Virus record (IMG/VR): IMGVR_UViG_3300008107_000787
Span: 1-29,184 of that record
DNA from: a virus
DNA: 29,184 nucleotides
Reading direction: 5' to 3' (one strand)
Shown here: positions 2,468 to 24,297 of the stretch, one piece after another
Layout: every line of letters begins with the position of its first letter
Numbering within the stretch: position 1 is the stretch's first letter
The notes under the pieces: model-generated
What the model was told of the DNA's origin: nothing
Database searches by the model: none
Seen by the model: only the letters and a program-made list of their open reading frames with translations
Translations under genes and position numbers: made by a program

Positions 2468-3526
2468 TTAATCCACCGTTACCTGTTGGGTTACAAATAC
2501 TTGACCCTTTAAATACGTGTGCTCCCAGGTAGGGTCATTTGCCCTGGTTGCTTGTAAATCCCAAAACGCACGAACAGGCAGATATTTAGTTTTATCGCTG
2601 TTTAACGATATCTTAATTCTTCCTTGTGCTGCATTTAGAATTGTAACATCAAAGGTGGCATATCTAGCTGGTGAATTTGGATAAGTACGAATTTCTGCCT
2701 TCCAGTCAATACCAGTAACATCAAAGGCAAAGTCAATAATTTGTTCGTAATAGTCGCCCTGGTACATAACAATGTCGTAAACTTCTGCGGTAGTTGGCGG
2801 AGGTGTATAGCCAAGTACATCGTTAGGAAGCCAAACTCTCTCTGGCTTTCTACTGTCGTCAATCTCCTGACCAATGTATATGGGAACAAGCTTATTAGTA
2901 CGTCGGCTAGTACGACGTAGGGTTCCAATTTGAATACGCCATAGGCCAATATTAAGAGCTGCGCATAATTGCTTGTATTGTTCCCAACGTTGGTTAACCA
3001 TATTAGTTAACTGTTCATATCTTTGAGAACGAGGAATCATAACGCCATCTGGAGCCATGATGTTAATATCAAAAGCAGCATCGGTTGAGAGTGCCCATAA
3101 AGCTTCAATGACTGCAAGAATAGCAATTGGATATTCTTCTACAGGTTCAATACTTTTAATTGTTACACGAGTTCCGTATTTATCGGTACGCTCGTGAGTG
3201 TGCTGGTCTATAGCAGTGTTAATAAAACGTTCAATATCGGAGTCTGTAAAGTATCTGTAACTAACTCCGTGAACACTAAGAATGTTTCCAGCATCTAGTG
3301 GTTCTCTAAAATGAATTATGCCTTGGTCTTTTTCTAATTTATAACCAGAAGGGGCAGGAACGGCCGCGTCAAGAACGGTAACATAAAGAGTATACGGTTC
3401 TACAGGCTTAGTGTTTAAATAAAAGTCTTTAGTAGCGCCATCAGCGGTGGCAACGAAATTAAATTCTTTAGGTAGGTCTCCTAGTTCAAGACGCACTCTA
3501 GACACTAGGTCGGACATTAAAGCCAC
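2468..3526 (-). CDS. Virion structural protein, probable head-to-tail or neck protein
   Basis: A 352-residue protein. The start is GTG at 3526, with AGGAG nine bases upstream; an ATG three codons later has poorer spacing. The N-terminus ([13 protein letters not shown], then a beta-rich part around residues 20-100) resembles the opening of phage head-completion or neck proteins, and an aromatic-rich helical part follows at residues 105-190. It lies after the capsid gene and directly before the collagen-like fibre, the usual place for connector or fibre-attachment proteins. I do not recognise a named family. The neck role rests mostly on position. Confidence 0.6.
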
Positions 3527-3563
3527 TTAATTCATCTCCTTTACTACATTGACTAACGAAACA

Positions 3564-3581
3564 GCGGACATTTCTGTCCGC
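3564..3581 (-). terminator. Short hairpin with GAAA tetraloop between head genes
   Basis: GCGGACA and TGTCCGC pair perfectly over 7 bp around a GAAA (GNRA) loop when read on the minus strand. Only a mixed T-rich tail (TGTTTCGTT) follows, so it is at best a weak terminator. It may instead be an mRNA-processing or stability element that lowers expression of the downstream gene relative to the capsid genes. Confidence 0.4.
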
Positions 3582-3612
3582 CGCTCCGCCGAATTAAGTG
3601 TAAGTCCCTAGC

Positions 3613-3978
3613 TTAGATAACTCCAGCTAGATAGCCTTTTTCCTCAAGGTGCTGAGCAACTTGACGAGACACTTTGTATTTTTGTCCAGCTTTAAAGCTG
3701 TAGTAGTTTCCTGCTCCAAGGGTCATTGATTCGATGTCTTCTACAACACGGATAACGACTGACTCATCGCTTTTGTCAATAACTGTTGGGTCATCAACAA
3801 TAACAGTTGGTCTGTTAGGAACAGTAGCGTCAACTACTTCTGTTTCCAGTTTAATTTGTGCTTCGGCAGTAGCCATGGACATTTCCTGTGCACGAGCAGC
3901 AAGCGCTTCAGCATTATCTGCTGCAAGCTTTTCGCGACTACGTCCAGTAACATCTGTTGGTTTTACTTTACTTGCCAT
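3613..3978 (-). CDS. Small head-associated protein of unknown function
   Basis: A 121-residue protein starting at ATG with TAGGAG upstream. Residues 1-60 are hydrophilic and Ala/Glu-rich, probably helical. The C-terminal 35 residues (YYSFKAGQKYKVSRQVAQHL then EEKGYLAGVI) form a compact module resembling a short domain seen at the end of many small phage proteins, in which a K-Y-K-V segment is followed by an amphipathic helix. It lies between capsid and neck genes, flanked by hairpins on both sides. A head decoration, head-completion or connector role is possible. No catalytic residues are apparent. Confidence 0.65.
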   Translation of the reverse strand: MASKVKPTDVTGRSREKLAADNAEALAARAQEMSMATAEAQIKLETEVVDATVPNRPTVIVDDPTVIDKSDESVVIRVVEDIESMTLGAGNYYSFKAGQKYKVSRQVAQHLEEKGYLAGVI

Positions 3979-4016
3979 TTGTATTCTCCTAATTAGTAAC
4001 TCGATGGGGGTAAGTA

Positions 4017-4041
4017 GGGGGCGGTTTTTAAGACCGCCCCC
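4017..4041 (-). terminator. Very stable GC hairpin directly after the major capsid gene
   Basis: GGGGGCGGT and ACCGCCCCC form a 9-bp stem around a 7-nt loop, 9 bases beyond the capsid stop codon. No U-run follows on the minus strand (TACTTACCCCC), so a classical intrinsic terminator is unlikely. A barrier to 3' exonucleases protecting the abundant capsid mRNA, or partial attenuation, fits better. Confidence 0.5.
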
Positions 4042-4049
4042 CGCTTGAA

Positions 4050-5021
4050 TTAGTTGGTTTCTGCAATAATTACAGACTGGTCAGTGATTAGACCAAGACC
4101 GAAGATTGAGTACCAAGCAAGAGCATGCTCACGACCGAAGTCAAGAATACCGCCATCGCGGGTGATGTAACCGCCACCAGGAGTTACTGTTGGGTTAGCA
4201 ACAGTTGTATCCGCAGTGTAGTTAGTACCAGCACCGCCTGCGACCTTAAGAACCTGTGTGGTCTCAATGAATACGCAGTCATATAGACGGCCAATTTCGC
4301 CAAGCATGAAGTTGCCTGGAGCAGCGTACTTGGTAACTTCGATAAACTCTGGGTTATCGCGTAGGCTACGGCTCTGGTGTGGGTGAACGAACGCCACATA
4401 GGTTTCACCTAAACGTGGGATGTTCTTGGTTGATAGGCTCTCAACTGCATCCTTGACAGTATGTGGTGTCAAGTAGCTAGCGCCAGTCATAGCTGCACGG
4501 TTTGCTGCGGTTGTGCCGTATGCATACCAGTTGTTGACTGCTGAGAGGTTGCTGCGGTCTTCACCATAAATGGTGGAGGTTGCTGCATATAGTGTGTCGC
4601 GTGATAGCTGGTCTAGATAGATAGCCATGTTACGACCAAGTAGACGTGAGGCTGACGCCATTACGTCATCAAAAGAAGCATTGAGAAGAAGTTCTGACAC
4701 AGCAAGAGCATAACCATGCTCGGTTACTGTGATTGAGAACTGCTGTGCAGTCAATGCGTTTGTCTGCATACGAACACCTTCAACAAGGCTATTAGCGAAG
4801 CCGAGGTTGTTGTAGCGTAGGAAATTAATCTGTAGACCAGGTGCAACACCAAGTTCAGTCTTCTTGACTGCGAACTGCTCAAAGCGAAGGATAGGCATAG
4901 CCTGGAACAAGATTTCCTTGGACCAGATTGTCTGAATCGCCTGAGTCAGCTGGGTGTTAGTACCTGAGTATGCTGTTGGGGCTGCGGCAAGGTTGCCAGT
5001 ACCCGTAATACCAGATGCCAT
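4050..5021 (-). CDS. Major capsid protein, N4-gp56 family (HK97 fold)
   Basis: A 323-residue protein with the features of the N4-gp56 capsid family. Near the N-terminus is IWSKEILFQAMPILRFEQFA, followed by a T-E-L-G..PG segment with FLRYNNLG. The E-G-V-R motif and ITVTEHGYALAVSELLLNAS come before a long helix that includes LGRNMAIYLDQ. Further on are YVAFVHPHQSRSLRDNPEF and a GNFMLGEIGRLYDCVFIE strand. These proteins form the icosahedral shell. Length is a little short for the family. It follows the scaffold-like gene, as expected, and has AGGAG ten bases before the ATG. A strong hairpin follows the gene. Confidence 0.92.
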   Translation of the reverse strand: MASGITGTGNLAAAPTAYSGTNTQLTQAIQTIWSKEILFQAMPILRFEQFAVKKTELGVAPGLQINFLRYNNLGFANSLVEGVRMQTNALTAQQFSITVTEHGYALAVSELLLNASFDDVMASASRLLGRNMAIYLDQLSRDTLYAATSTIYGEDRSNLSAVNNWYAYGTTAANRAAMTGASYLTPHTVKDAVESLSTKNIPRLGETYVAFVHPHQSRSLRDNPEFIEVTKYAAPGNFMLGEIGRLYDCVFIETTQVLKVAGGAGTNYTADTTVANPTVTPGGGYITRDGGILDFGREHALAWYSIFGLGLITDQSVIIAETN

Positions 5022-5908: not shown

Positions 5909-7375
5909 CTATTTTTGCGTTTTAATACGAAAATGTCTGCGTAAACGCTTTACTTTTCGTACTCTTCTGGTACTAAGTTTCTCTGTTGGGAACTCTTCTC
6001 CCAAAGTACGAAGGGCGCCTTCCTTGGACTCAAGACCAAGGGAAAGCATGGATTGAACTTCGTTAAGAGCAATAAGCTTATCTAATGGCAATGGTTGTGG
6101 GAAATGAACGTAGGTTAAATAAGTTAGAGGGTCGTGTGGGTCAAGTCTGTCTACCTGGCCCTTCTTTAATTTAACGTTGCGGGTTGGGTCCCAAACCATC
6201 ATCTCTGGTTCTTTAATAGCAATACTGCGAAGAATTAGGTCATTAATTCTTTCTAGACCGCGAGCGTATTGAATAATCTTTTGGTGGTAGCGGTTCATCA
6301 AAGGCTGGAACTGAATAGATAAAGCCACGCCTGATGTATTAGAAATAGGCTGTGCCTGTCCAAGTGCTGTTTCTGGAACACCAATCATTTCGTGCATAGA
6401 CTTTTTAAGCATAGCTAAGAATTCCATAGCGCCCTTAAGTCCTTGTGCTCCGCCTTCTAGGTTTTCTACTTTTGCATCTTTTGGTAGACCGCCCCAGACT
6501 TTGTTAGCGCCCTTTTCCAATTGTGAAGCTTTGGCACCAATGATGACTGTGACGGGAGCAGCGTGATAATTAACGATGTCAGCGATATCAGTAGCAGTCT
6601 CGTTATAAGTGCGGTTAATATTAATAACGTCATGGCAATCAGCAAGGCCCCAAGGAGAACCGCTAACGCGAACATTTGGAATGTGAACAATGGGAATAAC
6701 ACCAAGCGGGTTAGGGCGCGAGTCAATGAGTTCATCATTTATATACTCCTCAATAATGTCATCAGTGAGGATTTCAGTATAAGTAAACACTTGACGTGTA
6801 CCTTCAAGAGAAGTGCCCCAAAAACGATACTTTAATTTAAAGCGTATAAGGCGTTCACGGTCATGTGGATGAAACTCTGGAAAACAGAACGACGCGTTTA
6901 GTGGGAGAATACGAACACGACCTGGATGTTGAAATCCTGAAGTATCTGTCCAAGGTTCTTCGTATGCAACCTTTACAAAGCAGTCACCAGATACAGTTCC
7001 CTGCTGACCCATTTCCCATAGGACTGTTGCCTTGTTGTTATCTACTTCCCATACACGTTCTAGAATGTCTGGAACAATAGCTTCTGTTTCTTTTGGTGAA
7101 CGGAAGTTTACCCCTTTACCAAAAGTAAAGTTAATAATAAAGTCTGTAAATGCTCTGTAGTAATTAAGTACTAACTGTGCATCGCCAACCTGGCGGCGAT
7201 AGGAGTAATGGTGGCCCAAATACATAGCCCAGTTAAGAGAATAACGATTAAGACGCGGACCATGAACTTCAAATTCTTCATCTGCAAGCTCCACCAATCC
7301 TAGCGGGGAAATGGAAATAGTTAAGTCAGAGGACGCTGCCCTATAACTTGGGGGAGAAAAATCAATGCCGCTCAA
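5909..7375 (-). CDS. Portal protein
   Basis: A 488-residue protein between terminase-side genes and the scaffold, the normal portal position. It begins at TTG (7375), preceded by AAGGTGG. Portal-like features are the HHYSYRRQVGDAQLVLNYYR helix near residue 60 followed by FTDFIINFTFGKGVNFRSP, and the later MIGVPETALGQAQPISNTSG segment ahead of a long helix (LMNRYHQKIIQYARGLERIN) that would be the clip/crown region. It forms the dodecameric DNA gate at one capsid vertex. The very basic C-terminus (RRVRKVKRLRRHFRIKTQK) may touch DNA. It resembles SPP1-gp6-like portals in size and order. Confidence 0.88.
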   Translation of the reverse strand: MSGIDFSPPSYRAASSDLTISISPLGLVELADEEFEVHGPRLNRYSLNWAMYLGHHYSYRRQVGDAQLVLNYYRAFTDFIINFTFGKGVNFRSPKETEAIVPDILERVWEVDNNKATVLWEMGQQGTVSGDCFVKVAYEEPWTDTSGFQHPGRVRILPLNASFCFPEFHPHDRERLIRFKLKYRFWGTSLEGTRQVFTYTEILTDDIIEEYINDELIDSRPNPLGVIPIVHIPNVRVSGSPWGLADCHDVININRTYNETATDIADIVNYHAAPVTVIIGAKASQLEKGANKVWGGLPKDAKVENLEGGAQGLKGAMEFLAMLKKSMHEMIGVPETALGQAQPISNTSGVALSIQFQPLMNRYHQKIIQYARGLERINDLILRSIAIKEPEMMVWDPTRNVKLKKGQVDRLDPHDPLTYLTYVHFPQPLPLDKLIALNEVQSMLSLGLESKEGALRTLGEEFPTEKLSTRRVRKVKRLRRHFRIKTQK

Positions 7376-12824: not shown

Positions 12825-12848
12825 AAAGGCTCCAGCAATGGAGCCTTT
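12825..12848 (+). promoter_or_regulatory. Leader hairpin before the transglycosylase gene
   Basis: AAAGGCTCC and GGAGCCTTT pair over 9 bp around AGCAAT. It lies 10-15 bases upstream of GAGAGGAG, the Shine-Dalgarno of the gene starting at 12874. One T follows the stem on the plus strand, so attenuation is possible but termination looks weak. The layout resembles the leader hairpins of the plus-strand units further right. Confidence 0.5.
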
Positions 12849-12873
12849 TGCCACTACTGAGAGGAGCAATCAA

Positions 12874-13422
12874 ATGCTTAATATCAGCAAAGAGCAAAAC
12901 AGCCAACTGGCAATTATCATGGTTTATGTCATGGTACTGATTGGTAGCCCATTTGTAATTGCAGCAGCAAGAGCGGATGTGGGTACACAAGAAGCGGTAC
13001 GACCTATAGTCGTAGTCGAAGACCCGTTAGCTGACTTTAAGAATGCCAAGTCGTTAGACAAGGCGGAACTTAAAGACCTGCTTCAAGCAGTCGGGTTTGA
13101 GGGAAAGGCCCTCAGGACTGCTTGGGCCGTAGCGATGAAAGAATCGAACGGCCGACCTATTGCCCACAACGACAATACGAACACGGGAGATAACTCATAT
13201 GGCATCTTCCAAATCAATATGCTTGGTGACCTAGGAGCGGATAGGCGAGAAAAATTTAACCTACAAACTAATAAAGAACTCTTTGACCCCGTGACTAACG
13301 CAAAAATTGCGTATCACATGTCAAATAGAGGAGCTGACTGGACATCGTGGAAGGTGTACCCAGGGCAGACAAATGGAGAAAGATTTGAAGACTTCTATAA
13401 GGAGTTTCCGACAATAAACTAG
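12874..13422 (+). CDS. Membrane-anchored or secreted lysozyme-like transglycosylase
   Basis: A 182-residue protein on the plus strand inside an otherwise minus-strand region. The start at 12874 follows GAGAGGAG; an in-frame ATG at 12838 lies in a hairpin with no Shine-Dalgarno. Residues 12-33 (LAIIMVYVMVLIGSPFVIAA, ending ARAD) form a signal peptide or anchor. Residues about 78-180 resemble a lysozyme-fold transglycosylase: a helix ending in A-M-K-E-S-N-G with Glu90 as likely catalytic acid, SYGIFQIN at 108-115, then PVTNAKIAYHMSNRGADWTS. It should cleave peptidoglycan glycan strands. It could help lysis or be a host-derived wall hydrolase. It ends one base from the convergent gene. Confidence 0.8.
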   Translation: MLNISKEQNSQLAIIMVYVMVLIGSPFVIAAARADVGTQEAVRPIVVVEDPLADFKNAKSLDKAELKDLLQAVGFEGKALRTAWAVAMKESNGRPIAHNDNTNTGDNSYGIFQINMLGDLGADRREKFNLQTNKELFDPVTNAKIAYHMSNRGADWTSWKVYPGQTNGERFEDFYKEFPTIN

Positions 13423-13423
13423 C

Positions 13424-14239
13424 TTAAAAGAAAAAGCCCCCTGCGGAAGCAGCAGCCCAAGGGGTGATAGTAATTGTTGCTGTTGTTGCAACGCCTGCTG
13501 CACCAGCTGCAGTGCTCTGGGACTTGATAGTTCCAGCAACTGCCACAACTGAGCCTGTAATGCCTGTGAGGGCCAAGACTGTGGTTGCTGTAGTTGTAAC
13601 TGTGAAGGTGTTGTCTGTAAGGCGTGTAACTGTGTATGTTCCGTTGACTGAAGCATCGACAGAAGAAAGCGTAACCTTGTTGCCAGTAACGTAGCCGTGT
13701 GAGGCTGCGGTAATGGTTGTGGTTGTCTGACCAGCTGTGCGTGCTGCTGCTGTAACGGTTACAGCTGCGTTAGTAGCTGCTGAAGCCGTTGTAATGTTAG
13801 CCAACTCGTAACCAGCATCGCGTAGTTCGTCAATAGCTACTGCTGTGGTATCGCCAAGTACGCTAGGAACGATAATGTTTCCAAGACCTACGCCATCAGC
13901 TGCTGTTAGAGCAGTTGTTGACTCAACCTTACCGCGCTGACCAGTAATTAAGCCGCCGTTAGCAGCGTTAGTTACTGTGAACTGAAGAGCGTTTGCGCTA
14001 GCTACAGTTGCGCTTGCAGTAAATGTTGGATAGCCTGACCATCCAGCTTCTACGTTTGCGTGATTGTCAAGAGCTGCGTCAAGACGAGCGCTTGCTACTT
14101 TTGTAGTCTGTGCCCAACCGTAATCGCCAGTTGAACCACCAGTGTTGGTGACTGTAGCCGCACGGTCGTCGTTTGGCTGCATAGGGAAGTTGCCCCATAC
14201 AAAATCGACGGCCTGTCGACCTGAAGAATCTGTTGCCAT
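13424..14239 (-). CDS. Virion structural protein with FCCH-like beta domain
   Basis: A 271-residue Ala/Thr-rich protein with no Cys. The N-terminus (SSGRQAVDFVWGNFPMQPND) is typical of phage structural proteins. Residues about 165-225 contain an A-S-H-G-Y-V-T-G-N-K-V-T-L then N-G-T-Y-T-V and N-T-F-T-V-T-T pattern, matching the FCCH-like (ubiquitin-activating-enzyme-named) beta domain seen in many phage tail and baseplate proteins. It may be a fibre or capsid accessory protein. Its last codons (GGC TTT TTC TTT TAA) coincide with the U-rich tail of a hairpin, so the gene seems to encode its own terminator. Confidence 0.72.
   Translation of the reverse strand: MATDSSGRQAVDFVWGNFPMQPNDDRAATVTNTGGSTGDYGWAQTTKVASARLDAALDNHANVEAGWSGYPTFTASATVASANALQFTVTNAANGGLITGQRGKVESTTALTAADGVGLGNIIVPSVLGDTTAVAIDELRDAGYELANITTASAATNAAVTVTAAARTAGQTTTTITAASHGYVTGNKVTLSSVDASVNGTYTVTRLTDNTFTVTTTATTVLALTGITGSVVAVAGTIKSQSTAAGAAGVATTATITITPWAAASAGGFFF
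13427..13462 (-). terminator. Terminator embedded in the last codons of a coding region
   Basis: On the minus strand CCCC...GGGG plus CTGC...GCAG form a bulged 8-bp stem, followed by CTTTTTCTTTT. Stem, loop and U-tract all lie inside the 3' end of the structural gene at 13424-14239 and encode its final residues. It would stop transcription before it runs into the convergent plus-strand gene. Confidence 0.55.
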
Positions 14240-14310: not shown

Positions 14311-15333
14311 TTACGGTCTGTCAGGCTTAAATACTGGTGCGTCTGGAGAGGGTAGAGGGGGCATGCCGTTTCTGTTTGGTCTTGGTGGCATTCCCAAAGC
14401 TTTACCTCGTGCATTAACCGTATCGTAGTAAGCGTCTGACATATCTAAGAAACGCTCATCTATTTCAGTCACTTTAAAAAATTCTTTTACTTTTTCTATA
14501 GGCACGTCTTCTAACCCAGCTAGAAGTCTGCCAAGGTGGTTAGTAGCCCTTAGTACATGGTCCCAATAAGCGTTTTCTCTTTCATCACCCCAAGGCCGTA
14601 AAGCTGCCTTTGTATAGTTTCGTCCCCAAGAATCATGGTGTTGATGAAAAACGTCTCTAGCCCCAATTGCGTATATAGACCAACCCTTTGAAAACGTTCT
14701 TATAGATTGATTGAACTCCTCAGTACTAAAAGCCCCAATCCCATCTACTCCGACTTCATCTATCCAAGCTTTTGGAGCAAACATGTACATACAAGTGGTC
14801 CAATATGTTTTTGCAACCTCTGTTCCAGTTAATTCTCTATACCCAGGAAATTCATATCCTGGAACTAAGTCTTTATACCAAACAGCTCTTTGTCCAAACT
14901 TGTTGGTTTCTAGTTCTATATCTACATTTCCTTCTTTATCTATAAAATAAGAAGGAGGCGCATAGCAAATTAATACTTTTTCTTCTGAAAACGCCGCTTC
15001 TATATATTTATAGTTTTCGTACCCCCTTATATCCCACCCTTTACGAGCTCTAGAATGGGAATCAAACTGAACAAAGTAATCATAGTTAAAATCTACCTTT
15101 GTAGCTAAGTTTCTTGCCCAACACAGCCCGCCATAATATTTATCGGAGGAAAAATATCTGTAAATTAAATTTTTTTCTGGAATAAAAGAAAAATCTTTAG
15201 GCGCTTCATCCTCATCAACTAAAGAAAACACAATAGAATCTTTAAACTCGCAAGTGTCCCAAAGACTCCTCACAGTTTCAAAAAACTCTGGGTCTTTGTA
15301 GTTTACGATGCTTACCAGCAGTTTTGGGGTCAT
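14311..15333 (-). CDS. GlcNAc-transferase-like glycosyltransferase (Skp1 Gnt1/GT60-type domain)
   Basis: A 340-residue protein starting at the ATG at 15333, two bases after the preceding stop and behind GGAA. The fold is GT-A-like: LVSIVNYKDPEFFETVRSLW opens the domain, YYGGLCWARNLA follows, and YDYFVQFDSHSRARKGWD (residues about 85-101) holds the D-S-H that replaces DxD in this family. FSTEEFNQSIR near 203-212 and a His-rich F-H-Q-H-H-D at 229-234 complete it. This pattern belongs to the GlcNAc family known from Dictyostelium Gnt1, which attaches GlcNAc to hydroxyproline on Skp1. The donor and acceptor here are unknown. The C-terminus is Pro-rich. It is the last gene of a coupled five-gene cassette with two oxygenases. 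Confidence 0.8.
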   Translation of the reverse strand: MTPKLLVSIVNYKDPEFFETVRSLWDTCEFKDSIVFSLVDEDEAPKDFSFIPEKNLIYRYFSSDKYYGGLCWARNLATKVDFNYDYFVQFDSHSRARKGWDIRGYENYKYIEAAFSEEKVLICYAPPSYFIDKEGNVDIELETNKFGQRAVWYKDLVPGYEFPGYRELTGTEVAKTYWTTCMYMFAPKAWIDEVGVDGIGAFSTEEFNQSIRTFSKGWSIYAIGARDVFHQHHDSWGRNYTKAALRPWGDERENAYWDHVLRATNHLGRLLAGLEDVPIEKVKEFFKVTEIDERFLDMSDAYYDTVNARGKALGMPPRPNRNGMPPLPSPDAPVFKPDRP

Positions 15334-15335
15334 TT

Positions 15336-15605
15336 TTATTCCGTATCGTGGGTTGGGGCCCATTTATGAAGTGGACAGTAGGCTTTTGCTAGTTTTACTT
15401 TTAAATGCATAACACAACCACATTTTTTACATTGACCAGTAAGGGGCATTAACTCAGGACAAGACCTGCAGATAGACAACCTGTCTGAAGCAACGTCATC
15501 CGTTGCCCTAGGCTCAGAGGTTTTTAGTAAATCCCACGGCCTAACTGGTTTGGGGAGGTTTTTACCCTTATCACTGTTTCTAAATCTATCTGAAATTTTG
15601 CTCAT
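15336..15605 (-). CDS. Small zinc-binding protein of the modification cassette
   Basis: An 89-residue protein with Cys46-x2-Cys49, Cys59-x2-Cys62-x-Cys64 and Cys77, in the order CRSCPE, QCKKCGCVMHLKVKL, CPLHKW. I know this C-x2-C..C-x2-C-G-C-x-M..K..CP-x-x-x-W pattern from cyanophages and other tailed phages, usually beside 2OG oxygenases and glycosyltransferases. The first 40 residues are basic and probably flexible. ATG overlaps the upstream stop (4 bp) and the glycosyltransferase follows after 2 bp, so it is translationally coupled. Role unknown; a structural adaptor or partner is possible. Confidence 0.75.
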   Translation of the reverse strand: MSKISDRFRNSDKGKNLPKPVRPWDLLKTSEPRATDDVASDRLSICRSCPELMPLTGQCKKCGCVMHLKVKLAKAYCPLHKWAPTHDTE

Positions 15606-16330
15606 TTAAACGTCTTCTTCTCCCACATGTTTTCTTGATACATTCCTGAAAAGGAAGAGTTTATCAGATTTAGCCTATCACGAACTTCCTGACTTCTTTC
15701 CTCTACGATTTCAGAACTCCACTCTTCTCTTTTAAAGGGTATAGCCTGAGCAATAGGAGTTCCTCGTTTAATAATTCCTTTATAGTTTTTCTTTATGTGA
15801 AAAGGTAAAGCTCCAGCCGAAGGCATGCTGTCTGTGTCTATAATTCCAGTCATTGTTACAAAAGGAAGGTCTGGTCTATGGGCTGGGGTAATAATAAGTG
15901 TGCTATATCCCTCTGGGGTTACGGCGCACCAAAAAGGAACCCATCTTAAAATATCCTCACAAAGGTTGTCATCTATAGGGTAATCTCCAACCTGCTCTGG
16001 GTTGTGCGTTAATATAAACTCGTAACGAGGGTTTCTCCACTTTAATTGAATGTCTTTTGGATTTGTAGTGTCTATAAATATATCTACGGGACATAGAAAG
16101 TAATACCCAGTGGTAAACGTATCAATCATAGACATGCACTTCTTACCAGTTACGTTTAAAAAATGACCACCATTTGGAGAATCGTCAATAGCTTTTACAA
16201 CTTCTGGCTTTTGAGTTAAGTAAGGCGGAAGCTTTCTAAACCATTCTGGCATCATTGTCCGAACGGGGACTGGAGGAGGAGCAAAACCTCCTACTTCCTC
16301 GTCAGTAGGATAAAACTTAATTACTGGCAT
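15602..16330 (-). CDS. DUF6065-like protein
   Basis: A 242-residue soluble protein. The order of motifs fits the DUF6065-like family as I remember it: GKKCMSMIDTFTTGYYFLCP near residue 62, W-V-P-F-W then PEGYSTLIITPAHR (about residues 138-153), GIIDTDSM, and RGTPIAQAIPFKREEW near residues 189-204. This suggests a cupin-like beta barrel, but I see no clear metal-binding His set. In phages such proteins often sit with Fe(II)/2OG oxygenases. Its start shares one base with the preceding stop (TAATG). The function is unknown; it may help prepare or present a substrate. Confidence 0.7.
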   Translation of the reverse strand: MPVIKFYPTDEEVGGFAPPPVPVRTMMPEWFRKLPPYLTQKPEVVKAIDDSPNGGHFLNVTGKKCMSMIDTFTTGYYFLCPVDIFIDTTNPKDIQLKWRNPRYEFILTHNPEQVGDYPIDDNLCEDILRWVPFWCAVTPEGYSTLIITPAHRPDLPFVTMTGIIDTDSMPSAGALPFHIKKNYKGIIKRGTPIAQAIPFKREEWSSEIVEERSQEVRDRLNLINSSFSGMYQENMWEKKTFK

Positions 16331-16923
16331 TACATCACAGCGTTGTGTCTAGCCATTATTGTTTTGTAGTACTCCGCTCCTTTGGTGTGATACCAGTGGT
16401 CTGGTTCTGCATAGTGTAGAAATATCATATCTATTATATTTGTATCTTTTTCTGGATATGGTCCGCGCCAATGAAGTTGGTCTTCTCCATAAAAACACAA
16501 AGCTTGATTTGGTTGCAATATGTACTCTTTATCCTCAACGTACAGCGGCCACTCAACCATTTGTGTTAAACAAAGGTCAATCGTATATGTGCAAGCATTG
16601 CTGTCTTTATGGCGCAATAAGTTAGCTCTAGCACCTTTGTACTTTACGTAGCAAGCATATGTGGGTAGAAGAGTTTGGCTGTCAAATATATCTCTTGCTT
16701 TTTGCTGACATTCCTTTAATAGGTCGTCTGGCAAGGTACTTGACCCAGGCTTTAACATAAAACGGCCAAAACCTCTATCGTAACTAAGCTCATCCAAAGG
16801 GTAGTTAGTAACCGTTTCTACAACCTCTGCAAATCTAGTTGGCTCTAGCACGTCACTTACTATAATTGGGTCTTTTACAATTGGGCGAGTACCCATATCC
16901 GCATCATCAGAAAAATATTTCAT
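16330..16923 (-). CDS. Fe(II)/2-oxoglutarate oxygenase-like protein 2
   Basis: A 197-residue protein. The start at 16923 gives an ATGA overlap with the preceding gene; an upstream in-frame ATG at 16950 has no Shine-Dalgarno. A double-stranded beta-helix is suggested by NLLRHKDSNACTYTIDLCL with His105-x-Asp107 as the first two metal ligands, and GEDQLHWRG with His151 as the third and Arg153 as a possible 2OG contact. The closing strand is IIDMIFLHYAEPDHW. It is more divergent than the oxygenase before it. It may hydroxylate a protein side chain or a sugar. It ends in TAATG with the next gene. Confidence 0.7.
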   Translation of the reverse strand: MKYFSDDADMGTRPIVKDPIIVSDVLEPTRFAEVVETVTNYPLDELSYDRGFGRFMLKPGSSTLPDDLLKECQQKARDIFDSQTLLPTYACYVKYKGARANLLRHKDSNACTYTIDLCLTQMVEWPLYVEDKEYILQPNQALCFYGEDQLHWRGPYPEKDTNIIDMIFLHYAEPDHWYHTKGAEYYKTIMARHNAVM

Positions 16924-17537
16924 AAATGAGTTGTGTCTTCCAGTATCCACATAACCACAGCATACTTTGTTCCATCAGTTACTGGGTGAGCTATATGTGC
17001 ATAAATGTAGTTAGAAGGAAAGAAAATCATAGAATTAGCTGGTGGCTTTAACTTATACCCAAAGTATGGAAAGTCAATTTCTCCACCCTCATACTCATTA
17101 TTAACATACCAAACTAAAGATAATACGCGGTTATTTCCTCCCCCAGCATCTGCGTGCATATCGTATTTTTGACCAGTTTGATATCGTAGAATAATAGGGC
17201 TTACTGGAATTTCTCCAGAATTTACCGTTGGGTAATATTCTTTATATTTGTTATACGCATCTTGAATGTTATTAATTAGTTTTACTGCTAACTGTCCTCC
17301 AGCATTTAAATCTGGATTTTCTAAAGTAGCCCAATCTGCTTGAAGATGAATAGATGAGTTGGTTCTAGCCTCATGTACTTGAGTTCCAGAGGTAGGAGAA
17401 CCTACGGTAGCTCGTTTCCACCTAATTACTTTAGATGGTGAATTGCCTACTGTTTCTATGTCTTGTACTAGCTCTTTATAGTCAGGGACTATGTTCTCAA
17501 ATAAAACTATCCCTGGTGCAACGATTTTTGATTCCAT
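16920..17537 (-). CDS. Prolyl-4-hydroxylase-like 2OG-Fe(II) oxygenase
   Basis: A 205-residue protein opening the modification cassette, with AAAGGA before its ATG. The catalytic barrel is clear: YQTGQKYDMHADAGGG gives His128-x-Asp130, LSLVWYVNNEYEGGEIDFP is the typical strand with the E-G-G-E-I/L motif, and IAHPVTDGTKYAVVMWI gives His184 and Lys191, the residue that binds the 2OG carboxylate in prolyl hydroxylases. This is the P4H-like class, which hydroxylates proline or other side chains using Fe(II), O2 and 2-oxoglutarate. Many phages carry such enzymes without known substrate. Here a collagen-like fibre and Pro-rich surface proteins are candidate substrates. Confidence 0.86.
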   Translation of the reverse strand: MESKIVAPGIVLFENIVPDYKELVQDIETVGNSPSKVIRWKRATVGSPTSGTQVHEARTNSSIHLQADWATLENPDLNAGGQLAVKLINNIQDAYNKYKEYYPTVNSGEIPVSPIILRYQTGQKYDMHADAGGGNNRVLSLVWYVNNEYEGGEIDFPYFGYKLKPPANSMIFFPSNYIYAHIAHPVTDGTKYAVVMWILEDTTHL

Positions 17538-17547
17538 ATTAGGTCCT

Positions 17548-19332
17548 TTACTTATTGTGAACTAGTATACCCTCTGCGAAGAACATATCATAGGGCTCGG
17601 TGCTAAGAGTACGAACTTTAAATCTAATGTTTGGAGCATAAGTAATGCTTGTTATAGGGACCCAAGTCTCTAAATCTCCATCAAACAAGAGGTCTCCTTC
17701 TACAAGCTGAGCGGCGCGAGTATAGTAATAGCGCCCATCAGCGGCTTCTTTTGCAACAAATGGGTGAGAGCCCGTTACATGAATTCTATTATTAATAGTG
17801 TAGCGGCCAGTTTCTTCCCACTCCCTGATATTAACAATTGTTGTTATATCTAGTTCACGATAGGTAAAGCTGTCTGAAGACCAAGTATCCACAATTAAGT
17901 CTGCGTTTGGGTCGTCTGGGTCAATCTCCTCAAAGCGTGCAGAAATAACCTGGTCACCAATTTTTAACTCAGATAACCTTTTATCCCCATTTGGAGTAGG
18001 AATCATGCTGTCAATAGATAAGCAGTAGTAAGGGTATTGCGGTCTTGGCGCCTGCGGAGTACCACCAACGCCTGTGTAGAAATACTCTGGCCACGGTGCA
18101 AATGGTTGAGATGGTGGAGTAGGGGTTACAACTACTGGTGCGGCAGTTGGAGTTGGTGCAGTTGTTGGCACAGGACCAGTAGGTATACATCCTCGACCAA
18201 CGCCAGCAAATCCAGTGCCTGGAGGGCAACCAAAAGCGTCAGGTCCAGGAGCAGCAGTTGGAGTTGGAGCAGTAGTTGGAGTCGGAGCAGCTGTTGGAGT
18301 TGGGGCAGGTTGGCAGTTTCCTGGGTACCCCGAAGTTGGAACAAACGAGTTGGTATATATGCAATATGTGGTGTTTGCATCATAGGGACCGCTTGTGGTG
18401 CAAGGACTTCCAGTATTTCTTGGGGAACAGTAAGTGCTTCCGCAGGGGTCGAATTGATTTTGAAACCAAGTACCGTTATTGCAAAATCCTGCGTCGTCAT
18501 CTTGGCAACATGTTACTGGTGGAGCAGTTGGAGTTGGAGAAGCACAGCCGTTAACTGTAACAACTCTTGGCGTTGTTGTTCTTCCACAACAAGGGTCTGT
18601 TTGGTTAATTACTAAATTTGCTCCAGAACAATAGCTAGTTCCAGTGTCTTGGAAACAACTTGTGCAGGTACTACCACTAGGTGATGGAGCAGGCGCAGGC
18701 GCAGGCGCAGGTTGAGTAATACCGACAACATTAGACGGGTTTGATTCAGCACTGGTTCCGTTTGCGTTTGTAGCAGTAACAACAAAACTATAACTATTGC
18801 CGTTAGTTAATCCAGTAAAGGTAAGAGAGGTACCAGAAGTTGTTAGAGTTGTACTAGTTCCAACAATCTTTACAGTATATTGAGTAACTGTTGAGCCGCC
18901 GTTAGCTGGGGCGGACCATGAAACTGATGCGGTGCTTCCAGTATTTAAATTAGAAGCTGAAACGTTTGTAGGGATATTGGGTTTTGTAGTAGCTCTAATT
19001 GGTCCTCTGCCAGCTGAGTTAGGTCCAGTACTACTTTGATTTCTAGCCTTAACTGTATAAGTGTACTCAATACCAGAACGAAGACCAGTAACATTTCCAG
19101 TTGTTGTTAGCCCAACCTGTGTAGTAATAGTTGCACCACCGTCAGATGGAGTAGCAACAAGGTCATAGCCTACAAGCGGTGATTTTCCATCAAATGTAGG
19201 CGCAGTCCATGTTAGGTTACACGCACCGTCATCAAAGTTTCTATTAGACCCAGTATCAGTTGCTGAGGTTAGAGTTGCTACACCAGGCGGTACTTTTTTC
19301 TGGGAGTCAACTGGTCCGACTCTAATTAACAT
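17548..19332 (-). CDS. FN3 / Cys-rich / Hint-domain virion protein
   Basis: A 594-residue protein whose ATG shares a base with the preceding stop (TAATG). Residues about 15-116 and 118-207 are two fibronectin type III domains. A Pro/Ala linker leads to a Cys-rich part (223-340, over fifteen Cys) and P-T-P-T-A-A-P repeats (343-405). From Cys437 to the end is a Hint domain: Y-C-L-S-I-D-S opens it, TGSHPF with Thr520/His523 is the TxxH block, and it ends in I-L-V-H-N-K, with the stop right after Lys594. Hint domains self-cleave at the N-terminal Cys by an N-S shift. With no C-terminal extein, splicing is impossible, so cleavage or hedgehog-like transfer of the FN3 part is likely. Exposed on the virion, by inference. 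Confidence 0.85.
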   Translation of the reverse strand: MLIRVGPVDSQKKVPPGVATLTSATDTGSNRNFDDGACNLTWTAPTFDGKSPLVGYDLVATPSDGGATITTQVGLTTTGNVTGLRSGIEYTYTVKARNQSSTGPNSAGRGPIRATTKPNIPTNVSASNLNTGSTASVSWSAPANGGSTVTQYTVKIVGTSTTLTTSGTSLTFTGLTNGNSYSFVVTATNANGTSAESNPSNVVGITQPAPAPAPAPSPSGSTCTSCFQDTGTSYCSGANLVINQTDPCCGRTTTPRVVTVNGCASPTPTAPPVTCCQDDDAGFCNNGTWFQNQFDPCGSTYCSPRNTGSPCTTSGPYDANTTYCIYTNSFVPTSGYPGNCQPAPTPTAAPTPTTAPTPTAAPGPDAFGCPPGTGFAGVGRGCIPTGPVPTTAPTPTAAPVVVTPTPPSQPFAPWPEYFYTGVGGTPQAPRPQYPYYCLSIDSMIPTPNGDKRLSELKIGDQVISARFEEIDPDDPNADLIVDTWSSDSFTYRELDITTIVNIREWEETGRYTINNRIHVTGSHPFVAKEAADGRYYYTRAAQLVEGDLLFDGDLETWVPITSITYAPNIRFKVRTLSTEPYDMFFAEGILVHNK

Positions 19333-20120
19333 TAGGCGCTCAAATCGCCAAGTAGAGTCCAGGTATTCTCAGCAAGCTTTATAAGAGTGGCTGCTGACCA
19401 CTGCGTTCTTAAGTTTGGACCAGGAGTTGCGCCTAATACAACTGTGCCAGATTCTCCAACAAACGTTACATTTTGGTTTTGTCCACGAATAAAAGTTATT
19501 TGAGAACCAGTTGGAAAAGCTTGGCTAGCATTTAGAGGAATAGTCACTGTTAAAACCGCACCAGTGTTAATACACCAAAATACTTTGTTTTTATCAGCTA
19601 ATACTAATGAAAAATTAGAAGATTTTTGTTCAATTGTTGCGTCTTGAGGAATTGCGGTTACGCTACCAATAATGTTGGTTGCGTTTATGGTGCCAGTATA
19701 TAATCCAGTAGGGGTAACAGCCGCTTGAACAACTCCAATGTCATTTTGCCATTCTTGAAGGTTTGCAGTCTGATTTTGAGCCCCTCGTACAATAATTCCG
19801 CGATTTGCTGAATTACCAGTGTCAACTCTGTTGCTATTAGCACCGTCTGCAGTTTTACGCAGATACTGAGTGTGTGAATCAGCTACAACACCGTTTTCAA
19901 TGTTAGCAATACGTGCAGAAAGGCTTCCGTATGTAAAGGAGCTGGCGACAAAAGCGGTTGTAGGATTAGCAGCAGTAGAAACATGGGGGTTTGTACCAAT
20001 AATAGACTGCATAGCAACTACCTCTTCTTGTAAAGAGTTGGGGTGCGAAGCGTCTACGGTGTCGGTGATATTAAACTTTGTATCAAATACTCGTACCGAA
20101 CCTGGATATGATGCTGCCAT
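19332..20120 (-). CDS. Tail-fibre-like or receptor-binding protein
   Basis: A 262-residue protein with AAAGGA upstream. It starts MAASYPGSVRVFDTKFNITD followed by A-S-H-P-N-S-L-Q-E-E-V-V-A-M-Q, a signature of phage tail-fibre N-termini. A helical stretch and repetitive beta part follow (RTVDTGNSANRG region), and the C-terminus (ITFIRGQNQNVTFVGESG... NTWTLLGDLS) resembles the beta-domain that ends many such fibres. It precedes the Hint protein with a one-base overlap, so the two are translated together. It may be the FN3-Hint protein's structural partner. Confidence 0.78.
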   Translation of the reverse strand: MAASYPGSVRVFDTKFNITDTVDASHPNSLQEEVVAMQSIIGTNPHVSTAANPTTAFVASSFTYGSLSARIANIENGVVADSHTQYLRKTADGANSNRVDTGNSANRGIIVRGAQNQTANLQEWQNDIGVVQAAVTPTGLYTGTINATNIIGSVTAIPQDATIEQKSSNFSLVLADKNKVFWCINTGAVLTVTIPLNASQAFPTGSQITFIRGQNQNVTFVGESGTVVLGATPGPNLRTQWSAATLIKLAENTWTLLGDLSA

Positions 20121-21344: not shown

Positions 21345-21526
21345 TAATCTTCTTCCTTTGGGTTACGAATAGGGTAAGTAATTGCCCAAGCACCAAGGCT
21401 GAACAAAATTGCATACCCAACTACTGTCTTAGCGCTACCGTCTAAAACGACCCAGGCAATGAACATTCCAAGAAGTGTCCAGGTTTGCTCAATAAAGTCT
21501 CGTGCTAACTTCTTAATTAGATTCAT
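21344..21526 (-). CDS. Short membrane protein
   Basis: A 60-residue protein with two hydrophobic segments (about 14-29, LLGMFIAWVVL, and 36-50, GYAILFSLGAWAI). Ends K-E-E-D. It overlaps the large surface protein's stop (ATGA) and hands over to the next membrane gene by TAATG, so all three are coupled. It could be a holin or small membrane partner of the secreted protein. Confidence 0.65.
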   Translation of the reverse strand: MNLIKKLARDFIEQTWTLLGMFIAWVVLDGSAKTVVGYAILFSLGAWAITYPIRNPKEED

Positions 21527-24297
21527 GGCTTGCGTCTCCTAACGGCCCTACTATCTCCAGAAGGTGCTCCACCTCCAGAGTTACTGCTCCCCCCACCACC
21601 ACTTGGTGCGGGTGAACCACCGACTGCTGCACCGACTGCATTAAGAGCCGCTCCAGCAGCGATAACAGTTGCAACCACCATTTTGGTTGCTTCTTCTCGT
21701 TCTTCTGGAGACATATCAGCACCGATATTTCCGAGTGCTGTTAAGACCTGACCTGGGTCATCGAATATTGCGCCAATGAGTTCTGCGGGGTTCTCTAATA
21801 AGACTAGCGCCGCAGCAACCTCTGCTTCAATTATAACGGGATTACCGTTCTCATCAGTACGAACGTCGACTGGAGTTTGAGGAGGTAGGTCTTCATAGGT
21901 TAATCCAGCTTCCTGCAGAGCCTCAACACTAACAACCTCTCCAGGTTCTAAATTAGAAACCAAAGCTTCTACAACGGCGGCCTTTTCTTCATCTGTAAGC
22001 TTTCCGTCAGCCAGTGCTTCACTTATTACCTCATCTGGTGTATTATCAGAAGATGTTTCTTCCAACGGATTATCTTGCTCTTGTTCTTCTGACTGTGGCT
22101 GTTCTGATTCTTCAGTATTACTCTCGCTTTGAGACTCGTCAGTTTCGCCGCTTTGTTCGGGGTCTGTTTCTGGTGACTCTGGGTCTGTGGTTTGCTGTTC
22201 TTCTTCTGAGTTTGTAGGTTCTTCAGATGAGTCTTCAGAACTATCAATATCATCATCAGATGTGTTACTCTCATCTTGTTCAGGCGTATCATCAGTTGAT
22301 TCTTGCTCGTCAGGAGATTCAGGATTCTGGTCAGATTCCTGATTGGATTCTTGGTTTTGAGCCTCATCTTCGGAAGGCTCTTGAGATTGTTCCTGACCTT
22401 CAGGTTGAGATGGAGAATCGGGCTGAGGTTCAGTATCAGTTGGAGGAAGAGGATTAGATGGACTTTCAGAATCTGTCTGAGGAGGAGTGGTTGAAACATC
22501 GTCAGAAGGAGACGTTGGAGTTCCTGGATTTGCAGGCTCAGTTGGCGTTGAAGAAGAAACTTCTGGTTGAGAAGGAGTTGCAGGAGGCGGAGTTGTCGGC
22601 TGAGGCTGCACGACAGGCAGTTGAGAAACAGCAGTGGCGACTACACTCGCAACCTGAGTAGATTTTTCTACCGCAACATCTGCAAGAGTATTAGCAGTAT
22701 TTAAAGCAGCATTAGCTGCAGAAGTAGCAGTTGCTGCATCGTTTGTAACCTGTGTAAGAACAGCAGTAGTTGACACAACAGCAGCATCAGCAGTAGTTTT
22801 CTCAGCCTGGAGGTTAGACAATGTTTGAGTTTCTGTTGTTAATGTGGTCTGAGATGTTGCAAGTGCTGTCTCTGCTGTTGTTTTCTCTGCTGTAAGGGTT
22901 GTAAGAACAGCAACTTCTGCTGCTTTAACCTCTGTCTTATCAGCAACTACTGCTGTTTGAGTTTCAATTTGAGCGGTTAAAGTTTCATTGGTTACATTAG
23001 TCATTGTTTGTACAGGCTCACCTGCAACTTCACGAACACCAGTGCGTTGCGGATACCAAAGATTAGTGGTGTTTCCAGCAACCGTTCCCACACCAGTCCA
23101 CTCACCAGTTGTTGGGTTTACTGTCATTTTCCAATTAACGTTGGTTATGGGGCTGTTGTTGTCACCAAACTTCTTTAGGTTCCAATCAACTTCTAAAGTT
23201 GTTTCTGTAGTTTTAACAACTGTAGAAGTTCCTGCGCCAGCATTCATATAGTCGCTGGCAAATACTGAGATGCTTGGTCCATTAGGAAAATCCCACCAGA
23301 TATGGTCTCCAGTGCCAAATGTAATAGTTGCCTTTGAAGTTACGTAAATCTGGCTATCTGCACCCTGACCGTTGTATACGGTGTCTCCCATTTTTATATC
23401 AAAAGGCGTTTGAATTTTAGTTGATGCATCATACATAACTGGAAGGGTGGTCGTAGTAACGTTTGGCGTTACTACTGGCTCTGGGGCTACGTATCCTGTA
23501 GTTGTATACGTTTTAGAATCGGCTGGGGTATTTTGAAGTTCTGTTAGAGTAGTTTGAGCGTTAGTAAGGTTAGTTGTAGCAGTGGCTACTACGGCAGTTT
23601 GGCTCTCTACTGCTGCTGTAGCTGTGACAACTGTTGCAGTTGCTGATTCCACAGCGGTTGTGGCTGTTGCAACAACAGTAGTCTGTTCAGTAACTGCGGT
23701 AGCTGCAACAGCAGCTGTAGTGGTAGCGGTTTCTACAGCTGCTGCGGCAGGTGCTATAAGTGCAGTAGCGCTTTCAGCAGCTTGCACTAAAACAGTTGCA
23801 CTCTCAACTGCTGTCTGTGCAGTTGTAATTGCAGTTGTTGCTTCTGTAACAGCTATTACAACTGCGGTGTCAGAAGAAACCGTAGTTGGTATAATTGTGT
23901 TTGCTACAGTTGCCGTAGCAGTTTCAATCTTTTCTTGTACGGAGGTAACAGTAATTGGTTCAGGACTATTTGTTGGTGTGGCTACTGGCTCTGCCGATTG
24001 CATGGTTGATTGGTTGGGCGATGGCGATGAAGTATCTGAAGCTGAAGACGATTGTGGAGCTGAATCAGTTGAAGAAGAGTTTGAAGAACTCTCACCAGTT
24101 GATTGAGGAGCTGACGTTGGTTGTGGAGAGGCTTCAGAAGAAGTAGTTACTGTAGCCCCATCTACAGGAGCTGGGCTTGGGGCAGGGGAAACTACCTGCT
24201 GGTCAGTAGCAGGTTCTTCAGCATGCGCAGTTGATTGACCAAGTAAAAATAGAAATGTTGCGAGGAATAGTGCTGCGAAAAATCGCAGAAATATAAT
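21523..24297 (-). CDS. Large secreted surface-type protein, apparent ATT start
   Basis: A 924-residue protein if read from an ATT at 24297. An in-frame TAA immediately precedes it, no ATG, GTG or TTG opens the frame near there, and AGGGG lies eight bases upstream. The first ATG is at codon 99 and would remove a good signal peptide (I-F-L-R-F-F-A-A-L-F-L-A-T-F-L-F-L-L-G-Q-S-T-A-H-A, cleavage before E-E). Then come a Ser/Pro linker, Ala/Thr-rich coiled-coil-like repeats (about 120-260 and 440-560), a beta domain near 270-430 (GDHIWWDFPNGPSISVFASD), a Pro-rich and very acidic Ser/Glu/Asp stretch (565-755), a helical domain (ALADGKLTDEEKAAVVEAL ... IGADMSPEEREEA) and a hydrophobic segment with Gly/Ser and RRRKP tail. 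Function unknown; likely cell-surface or virion adhesin. Confidence 0.8.
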   Translation of the reverse strand: MIFLRFFAALFLATFLFLLGQSTAHAEEPATDQQVVSPAPSPAPVDGATVTTSSEASPQPTSAPQSTGESSSNSSSTDSAPQSSSASDTSSPSPNQSTMQSAEPVATPTNSPEPITVTSVQEKIETATATVANTIIPTTVSSDTAVVIAVTEATTAITTAQTAVESATVLVQAAESATALIAPAAAAVETATTTAAVAATAVTEQTTVVATATTAVESATATVVTATAAVESQTAVVATATTNLTNAQTTLTELQNTPADSKTYTTTGYVAPEPVVTPNVTTTTLPVMYDASTKIQTPFDIKMGDTVYNGQGADSQIYVTSKATITFGTGDHIWWDFPNGPSISVFASDYMNAGAGTSTVVKTTETTLEVDWNLKKFGDNNSPITNVNWKMTVNPTTGEWTGVGTVAGNTTNLWYPQRTGVREVAGEPVQTMTNVTNETLTAQIETQTAVVADKTEVKAAEVAVLTTLTAEKTTAETALATSQTTLTTETQTLSNLQAEKTTADAAVVSTTAVLTQVTNDAATATSAANAALNTANTLADVAVEKSTQVASVVATAVSQLPVVQPQPTTPPPATPSQPEVSSSTPTEPANPGTPTSPSDDVSTTPPQTDSESPSNPLPPTDTEPQPDSPSQPEGQEQSQEPSEDEAQNQESNQESDQNPESPDEQESTDDTPEQDESNTSDDDIDSSEDSSEEPTNSEEEQQTTDPESPETDPEQSGETDESQSESNTEESEQPQSEEQEQDNPLEETSSDNTPDEVISEALADGKLTDEEKAAVVEALVSNLEPGEVVSVEALQEAGLTYEDLPPQTPVDVRTDENGNPVIIEAEVAAALVLLENPAELIGAIFDDPGQVLTALGNIGADMSPEEREEATKMVVATVIAAGAALNAVGAAVGGSPAPSGGGGSSNSGGGAPSGDSRAVRRRKP

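Follow-up and report, generated by a model that had tools for sequence, protein, structure and literature searches.

Organization and conservation of the cassette

The viral record IMGVR_UViG_3300008107_000787, whose 29,184 bases were analysed as a whole (the window), contains a cassette of five open reading frames (ORFs) between positions 14311 and 17537. All of them lie on the minus strand in the order P4H-OX2-DUF6065-ZN-GT and, as described in the initial annotation of this sequence, form a single run with overlapping junctions:

16920–17537, minus strand: P4H, a prolyl 4-hydroxylase-type 2-oxoglutarate (2OG)-Fe(II) oxygenase of 205 aa
16330–16950, minus strand: OX2, a second 2OG-Fe(II)-type oxygenase, assigned by its fold model, of 206 aa; probable start at the internal ATG 16923
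15602–16330, minus strand: a relative of DUF6065, 242 aa
15336–15605, minus strand: ZN, a small zinc-ribbon-like protein of 89 aa
14311–15363, minus strand: GT, a glycosyltransferase of the PF11397 (Gnt1) family, 350 aa; probable start at the internal ATG 15333

The successive overlaps from P4H to GT amount to 31, 1, 4 and 28 bases. The two longest result from a mechanical calling of starts; homologues fit internal ATGs at codon 10 of OX2 and codon 11 of GT and suggest later starts for both genes. Scans with GT retrieved 21 loci, 17 of them close (L002–L018, 64–100% identical) and four distant (L019–L022, 26–30%). All five genes are found in the window order in 14 of the 17 close relatives, and in the remaining three (L005, L008, L014), which are cut by contig ends, the visible part agrees with this order. 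Among the distant loci, L019 and L020 have no recognisable tail genes alongside. The dN/dS ratios of the cassette genes between the window and four relatives range from 0.02 to 0.23, as rough values given a dS above 1 in three of the comparisons; two ZN values were not computable. The five genes are real and maintained under purifying selection.

The two oxygenases

P4H matches PF13640 with an E-value of 1e-15 (58.9 bits, cut-off 27), and its best solved relatives are the prolyl 4-hydroxylases 3itq (E 8.6e-7) and 5hv0, both from B. anthracis. Of the ligands originally assigned, His128, Asp130 and Lys191 were retained, the last at a 2OG-binding position occupied by Lys or Arg in the relatives. 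The distal iron ligand, however, is His181 and not His184; the former aligns with the histidine of 3itq and does not vary among the 10 homologues aligned, the latter is replaced by Asn in L018. Matches to the PKHD-type profiles of NCBIfam were found below the cut-off only. The protein is best described as a putative enzyme of the prolyl-4-hydroxylase type, a designation that covers prolyl and other hydroxylases alike, as these are not distinguishable by sequence.

OX2 matches no Pfam family above the cut-off, and its best phrogs (2954, 3531) bear a ferrochelatase annotation. Its alignment with P4H by hhalign is weak (prob 1.1), though the HxD motifs are placed together, and its assignment as an oxygenase is consequently based on structure. 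The predicted model (pLDDT 83.5) matches PHD2 (4bqy; Foldseek E 3.2e-7, TM about 0.5) and, with Z-scores of 14.1–16.3 among the 50 matches listed, PHD2 and other 2OG oxygenases. His114, Asp116 and His160 are invariant in 9 of 9 aligned sequences; the basic residue that normally binds 2OG, about 10 positions after the distal histidine, is not conserved, and Arg162 (H160+2) is invariant. The model suggests that OX2 is a 2OG-Fe(II)-type oxygenase with a double-stranded beta-helix fold; the earlier view of a second oxygenase-like protein holds as to fold and HxD...H triad but finds no counterpart among oxygenase families above the Pfam cut-off. No match to OX2 was detected in isolated phages at E 1e-5. 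A loss of metal ligands, which would have spoken against the initial annotation, is seen in neither oxygenase.

Glycosyltransferase, DUF6065 relative and zinc protein

The assignment of GT to the family of N-acetylglucosamine (GlcNAc) transferases around Gnt1 was borne out by its match to PF11397 (E 4.7e-16, 59.6 bits, cut-off 21), a family that includes the polypeptide GlcNAc transferase Gnt1; nine relatives tested from other cassettes score between 73 and 170 bits. Its D101-S-H103 motif, of which Asp101 and His103 are invariant in 8 of 8 aligned sequences, presumably represents a DxD-like metal-binding motif. The best match in a sequence search of the PDB was no better than E 0.3, and isolated phages gave no match to the window GT at E 1e-5; three large isolated phages carry a relative of the transferase of L020.

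The DUF6065 relative corresponds to phrog_7084, of unknown function (E 6.5e-41). Against the Pfam profile DUF6065 (PF19541) it remains below the cut-off (14.4 versus 26.6 bits), so that the original designation as DUF6065-like is based on profile-profile homology (hhalign prob 96.5, E 8e-10) and not on family membership. Its predicted model (pLDDT 83.0) matches dUTPases of the PDB (Foldseek E 8.9e-4, prob 0.99) and superimposes on dUTPases and dCTP deaminase with a Z-score of 10.7 and an rmsd of 2.7 over 119 residues, the TM-score by model length being merely 0.25–0.33 among the matches listed. A dUTPase-type match was also obtained in the viral structure library, and the segments GxIDTD and GTPIAQ presumably resemble dUTPase motifs 3 and 4. 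Together, these data suggest a remote DUF6065 homologue with a dUTPase-type fold. Halophages encode a relative with about 30% identity along almost the entire protein; in HF2 (L054, 6896–7780) its gene is located near a ribonucleotide reductase and a DNA methyltransferase, which hints at a nucleotide-related role of this fold. No paper on DUF6065 was found in the open-licence literature searched.

The presence of a zinc protein in the cassette, also proposed at the outset, is corroborated for ZN by a CxxC...CxxCGC...CP pattern, a match to DUF6171 (PF19668, 29.9 bits, cut-off 27) and one to phrog_13558 (E 6e-17). Relatives of ZN in cyanophages also adjoin tail or virion genes. In Synechococcus phage S-SRM01 (L058), an annotated flavin-dependent halogenase (3390–4847) lies among tail-fibre/adhesin genes near a ZN homologue.

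A proline-rich tail protein upstream of the cassette

The stop codon of the neighbouring gene lies 10 bp before the start of P4H:

17548–19332, minus strand: FN3 tail protein of 594 aa with two FN3 stretches (fn3 E 8e-26), the proposed substrate

Its Cys-rich and Pro/Thr/Ala-rich linker (residues 206–435) is 230 residues long and includes 45 prolines; Ala, Thr or Ser precedes 26 of these. The PTPTAAP repeats noticed at first inspection of the sequence are thereby located in the protein directly upstream of P4H. From Cys437 to the terminal VHNK follows a Hint/intein-like domain (the Intein_splicing match is weak), on account of which the protein may undergo self-cleavage or self-attachment. Related Hint tails ending in HN plus a short tail are present in L077, L078, L082, L095 and L112; no Hint match was obtained for the corresponding genes of L084, L110 and L150.

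The recurrence of such a neighbour was analysed for 27 cassettes, non-redundant by shared 5-mers, which contain GT or P4H and at least one other family and which had been collected through DUF6065, GT, OX2 or terminase; twelve further cassette groups (redundancy kept) have no upstream ORF in view. Among upstream ORFs with a length of 100 aa or more whose end lies no further than 1.5 kb away, the most proline-dense was considered. It has at least 9 prolines in 40 residues in 18 of the 27 cassettes versus 6 of 267 other ORFs of the same loci (Fisher 2e-17, kinship ignored), and at least 12 in 13 of 27 versus 2 of 267. By rank, 18 of the 27 upstream ORFs are the most proline-dense in their locus versus 6.1 expected given the number of ORFs tried, and none of 20,000 simulation runs reached the observed 18. 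The two sets of 18 differ, as the ORFs of the window, L082 and L110 are the second most proline-dense of their loci and those of L051, L207 and L218 come first with few prolines. The lower threshold is reached by 9 of 11 cassettes inside the terminase lineage of the window and by 9 of 16 outside it. A Pro/Thr-rich protein as candidate substrate, as envisaged before, is supported by this recurrence.

The upstream ORFs are repeatedly tail-like, as judged by eye or from an FN3 match, and often Cys-rich, and their proline repeat varies from phage to phage: PTPTAAP in the window, PTAPVTP (L009), TPPQPTPPQP (L018), PTPTPTPT (L150), SPPPASPPPA (L172), PPPVFT (L190), FPPPFPPP (L195), APPF (L203), TPPVTPPV (L231), TPPIIAV (L210, as TPPIIAVTPP), FFSPPG (L212, L229), FFAPPG (L232), FFSPPGFFAPP, AEPPVIII (L101), YYAAP (L082, L145) and PPPVFTPPPVFT. 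A true collagen-like GXY run is found upstream in L205/L206. Proline-rich proteins are not confined to cassette neighbourhoods, since L107 encodes one (2–1342) at a place similar to that of an 826-aa protein of the window (21523–24003, minus strand) composed of Val/Thr/Ala-rich repeats and a Glu/Ser/Pro-rich stretch.

An exchangeable island in the tail region

The cassette and the FN3 tail gene are flanked by two genes:

19332–20120, minus strand: minor-tail-like protein of 262 aa (phrog_8780, minor tail protein, E 1.3e-13), the upstream island boundary
13424–14239, minus strand: conserved protein '271' with a weak PASTA match below the cut-off, the downstream island boundary

Terminase scans were performed twice, the first yielding 29 loci and the second comprising the best 80 of 344 relatives with a TerL 85–93% identical to the query. 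Within this single lineage, the site between the minor-tail-like gene and '271' holds differing cassettes exchanged in situ. Islands of the window type carry all five genes, that of L082 GT-DUF6065-ZN, those of L077, L095 and L084 ZN-GT-DUF6065, that of L150 ZN-OX2-GT, that of L110 ZN-P4H and that of L101 DUF6065-ZN-OX2-P4H; ZN homologues are thus present in many versions and, in L136, ZN is the only member of the cassette families. In L107, L109, L120 and L126, the region ahead of '271' showed neither cassette genes nor an FN3-type tail gene. The replacement transferases of L082 and L077 share only 17% and 21% identity with the window GT; nevertheless, all those tested (L082, L077, L150, L145) belong to PF11397. 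Other versions add sugar-nucleotide epimerases (L139, L144, L143), a mannosyltransferase-like protein (L144) or, in L139, a carbamoyltransferase together with an O-FucT match below the cut-off. The cassette occupies a tail-gene island that is subject to exchange in these probable actinophages, and is best read as one of several versions of a tail-modification cassette.

Carbamoyltransferase genes beside cassettes were recorded at L139:3787–5223 (confirmed by Pfam), L210:7402–7937 and L050:7101–8537 (both by eye); an annotated one, at L056:7415–9712, adjoins the GT relative of Xanthomonas phage XacN1. They possibly provide a further decoration step. Between the proline-rich tail gene and ZN, a small protein of 70–84 aa (FAFxxxGDVF...GWTxDG) is encoded in L110 (4542–4754), L150 (3962–4210) and L084 (3784–4038), which is possibly a tail-assembly chaperone.

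Separable oxygenase and glycosyltransferase genes

Neighbourhoods of DUF6065 were derived from a scan comprising 79 viral loci (the best 80 of 109 relatives) and three bacterial ones. Scan and earlier loci, minus six named phage records, provided 162 DUF6065 genes in 36 clusters, of which 11 are accompanied by GT only, 11 by P4H-type genes only, six by both and eight by neither. In these counts a cluster is positive if any member shows the neighbour (GT occurs in 2 of 11 members of the L192 cluster and in 2 of 10 of the L210 cluster), neighbours beyond contig ends are missed, and the few loci with two DUF6065 genes count in two clusters. Three of the eight clusters with neither are bacterial; in the three bacterial genomes of this one scan, no neighbour from the cassette families was found. 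Combinations outside the window lineage include GT-P4H-DUF6065 in L192 and ZN-P4H-DUF6065-OX2-P4H-GT in L210, with PF11397 confirmed.

GT and P4H look like separable partners and not like a fixed pair. An obligatory coupling of both as a rule was rejected, as they stand apart in 22 and together in six of the 36 clusters. In terms of association, not of chemistry, the same numbers leave an obligatory order, hydroxylation followed by attachment of GlcNAc, without support.

Proposed role of the cassette

A protein-modification role of the cassette is supported indirectly. The families, folds and metal-ligand motifs of the enzymes, their conserved order and their recurrent pairing with proline-rich ORFs are observed features, from which we infer a scenario as to substrate, sugar, order of steps, the roles of the DUF6065 relative and ZN, and benefit. 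We somewhat favour the idea that the cassette enzymes hydroxylate and glycosylate the proline-rich linker of the neighbouring tail protein; this linker is the best candidate because a proline-dense ORF recurs just upstream of the cassettes. In the infected cell, P4H, and probably OX2 too, would hydroxylate the Cys-rich, Pro/Thr/Ala-rich linker of the FN3-Hint protein, the likeliest targets of P4H being its prolines. The PF11397 transferase might attach a sugar, GlcNAc or one like it, to hydroxyproline, to Thr/Ser of this linker or to both. As accessory proteins, the DUF6065 relative and ZN would assist, perhaps in the handling of nucleotides, nucleotide-sugars or the tail protein. The outcome might be a stiffer, decorated and quickly varying tail linker for host recognition or protection.

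Several observations weigh against this proposal. Nine of the 27 cassettes (L019, L020, L050, L051, L077, L108, L207, L218, L223) have no proline-rich upstream ORF, although in L077 and L108 just a short one (150 and 126 aa) is visible near the contig end. Conversely, the tail protein at the island site of L119 contains 11 prolines in 40 residues and is not accompanied by enzymes, and only two (L136, L143) of the three enzyme-poor tails, which lack P4H and GT, are not proline-rich. Outside the window lineage, the tail-like status of the upstream ORFs was judged by eye. A pairing of GT-bearing cassettes with Ser/Thr-richer repeats was rejected, as 13 GT-bearing and 11 P4H-only representatives showed no difference in the Ser+Thr content of their repeats (24 in total, hand-picked; p 0.41). 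Finally, GT and P4H occur together in six of the 36 DUF6065 clusters versus 8.0 expected if independent, and since they co-occur no more than by chance, hydroxyproline need not be the acceptor of GT.

If the proposal is true, P4H-type oxygenases filed merely as auxiliary genes in phage family libraries would gain a substrate and a purpose, and two families of unknown function, DUF6065 and DUF6171, a context. Bacterial viruses would then join the makers of hydroxyproline-type glycoproteins, so far mainly plants, algae and a few protists. Any proline-repeat tail protein encoded beside these genes is predicted to carry +16 and sugar masses, and the divergent enzyme-repeat pairs could serve to hydroxylate or glycosylate proline-rich polymers in bacteria.

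Alternative explanations

The initial annotation had regarded a collagen-like fibre of the same genome as the substrate, and its gene is indeed present:

1–2466, minus strand: collagen-like fibre gene (PF01391), at least 822 aa, running off the window

In this alternative, P4H would hydroxylate the fibre and GT subsequently add GlcNAc to its hydroxyproline. It is compatible with the homology of P4H to bacterial P4Hs and with collagen matches above the cut-off in the six cassette-bearing clade records that reach the gene (G000, G001, G005, G009, G010, G011; other close records end before it). However, the gene is 12 kb away from the cassette and is kept in members of the lineage lacking P4H or the whole module. 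A collagen-like ORF is found in 11 of 12 loci with gene '352' (the twelfth, L076, ends inside '352'), including L077 and L082, both without P4H, and GXY ORFs were flagged in L084 and L150 (no P4H), L112, L136 (ZN only) and L107 (no tail module). The gene does not track the cassette. Moreover, the usual proline site of collagen P4H is the Y position of the triplets, and in the window fibre (runs of at least three GXY) only 3 of 142 triplets have proline at Y versus 64 at X. Owing to its distance, its retention without P4H and its few Y-position prolines, the fibre is a poor substrate candidate and was rejected as a specific partner of the cassette; we consider its modification by P4H and GT unlikely. 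The commonest Y residue is Thr (68 of 142), and the triplet and gene-distribution evidence leaves room for a modification of fibre Thr, which may occur. In another phage group, L205 (2937–7016) and L206 (1495–5053), several P4H-type genes and DUF6065 come immediately after a collagen-like gene, and the idea of a collagen substrate would fit best there.

As another possibility, the oxygenases might modify a host protein, e.g. EF-Tu or a ribosomal protein, for takeover, with GT acting separately. P4H and OX2 are near PHD-type and bacterial P4H enzymes, including the P. putida P4H 4j25, and some bacterial P4Hs have EF-Tu as substrate. The location in the tail module, the rapid exchange together with the tail protein, the proline-rich neighbour and the several P4H-type genes per cassette in L195, L205 and L206 render this explanation improbable.

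For the glycosyltransferases of aquatic phages, namely actinophages and pelagimyophages, decoration of host glycans has been proposed besides DNA glycosylation (PMC10202952, PMC7029224), and GT might correspondingly decorate host surface glycans to exclude other phages, the oxygenases being unrelated passengers. We give this little credence, because GT is repeatedly associated with DUF6065 and, in the window lineage, with tail genes. In addition, PF11397 presumably holds, with Gnt1, a transferase acting on polypeptides. Under a last explanation, the cassette would serve to modify DNA or nucleotides, by analogy with base J or with hydroxymethylated, glucosylated bases, as the dUTPase-type fold of the DUF6065 relative, the genomic context of its HF2 homologue and a Tet_JBP match below the cut-off in the P4H relative of L212 might indicate. 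This is very improbable, given that P4H and PF11397, presumably protein-modifying families, provide the better matches and that the window genes lie in the late tail module beside a proline-rich neighbour and away from replication genes.

Phage lineage and further features of the window

By terminase, the closest isolates of the window phage, a freshwater virus, are Streptomyces phages (BRock, GiJojo and others; 54–55%). This kinship, the tail sheath gene found in GiJojo and the presence of WhiB, an actinobacterial regulator, in 10 of 16 records examined of the terminase lineage identify it most likely as a contractile-tailed phage of aquatic actinobacteria. In one pair of 'Ca. Planktophila' phages, a variable island comprises part of the tail fibre and two collagen-like genes (PMC10202952).

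Three ORFs of the window are shorter than in close relatives: the capsid-like protein (4050–5021, minus strand; 323 versus 356 aa), '271' (about 309–323 aa in the relatives) and the portal (5909–7375, minus strand; 488 versus about 568 aa). Assembly indels or a frameshift in the window record are a possible reason. A lysozyme/transglycosylase-like gene (12838–13422, by eye) lies on the plus strand within the otherwise minus-strand late region, and the same inversion is present in L077, L078, L082, L083 and L205.

Comparison with known systems

The proposed hydroxylation and glycosylation of a tail linker may be compared with several established systems. In the Skp1 pathway of Dictyostelium and Toxoplasma, hydroxylation by PhyA is followed by glycosylation by Gnt1, a known model of serial use (PMC3515798). 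The window likewise combines a P4H-type oxygenase and a Gnt1-family transferase, here within one gene cluster; in contrast to Skp1, its target is probably a proline-rich tail linker, P4H and GT are separable, and OX2, the DUF6065 relative and ZN are additional. For virion glycosylation in mycobacteriophages we know of no oxygenase partner. The likeness lies in transferases of phage origin, for which a decoration of actinophage virion proteins has been suggested (PMC11256854). The targets there are capsid or tail-tube proteins. In mimivirus (L230, L593, R699), a viral oxygenase and a glycosyltransferase act on a repetitive viral protein, and the protein L230 is both a lysyl hydroxylase and a hydroxylysyl glucosyltransferase (PMC9546862). 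With this precedent, the original statement that a viral two-step hydroxylation/glycosylation would be new proves too broad. The systems differ in that lysine is modified there and, by our reading, proline here, in that mimivirus is a eukaryotic giant virus, and in that its activity on collagen is shown.

In relation to DUF6065 (PF19541), the window protein is homologous by profile comparison yet below the Pfam cut-off, and its putative dUTPase-like fold is suggested in the present work. Among the papers listed in searches of the open-licence literature, no report was found on a pairing of P4H with proline-rich tails in phages or on a combined phage hydroxylation and glycosylation; measured against these, the novelty lies in the occurrence of such a cassette in phages, together with its DUF6065 association and its connection to proline repeats.

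Plant extensins and arabinogalactan proteins offer a further parallel, as proline-rich repeats of a similar style (SPPP, TP, AP) coincide with P4Hs and glycosyltransferases; the repeats of arabinogalactan proteins follow comparable motifs. The window case differs in being a phage system of the bacterial cytoplasm with a PF11397 transferase, its hydroxyproline being predicted from genes. Tentatively, and with more doubt than confidence, we suggest that tailed phages, in building and varying their tail surfaces, make hydroxyproline-rich glycoproteins from the rapidly changing proline repeats of a neighbouring tail protein via a mobile cassette which represents, across unrelated aquatic phages, an independent counterpart of the extensin/arabinogalactan-type proteins of plants.

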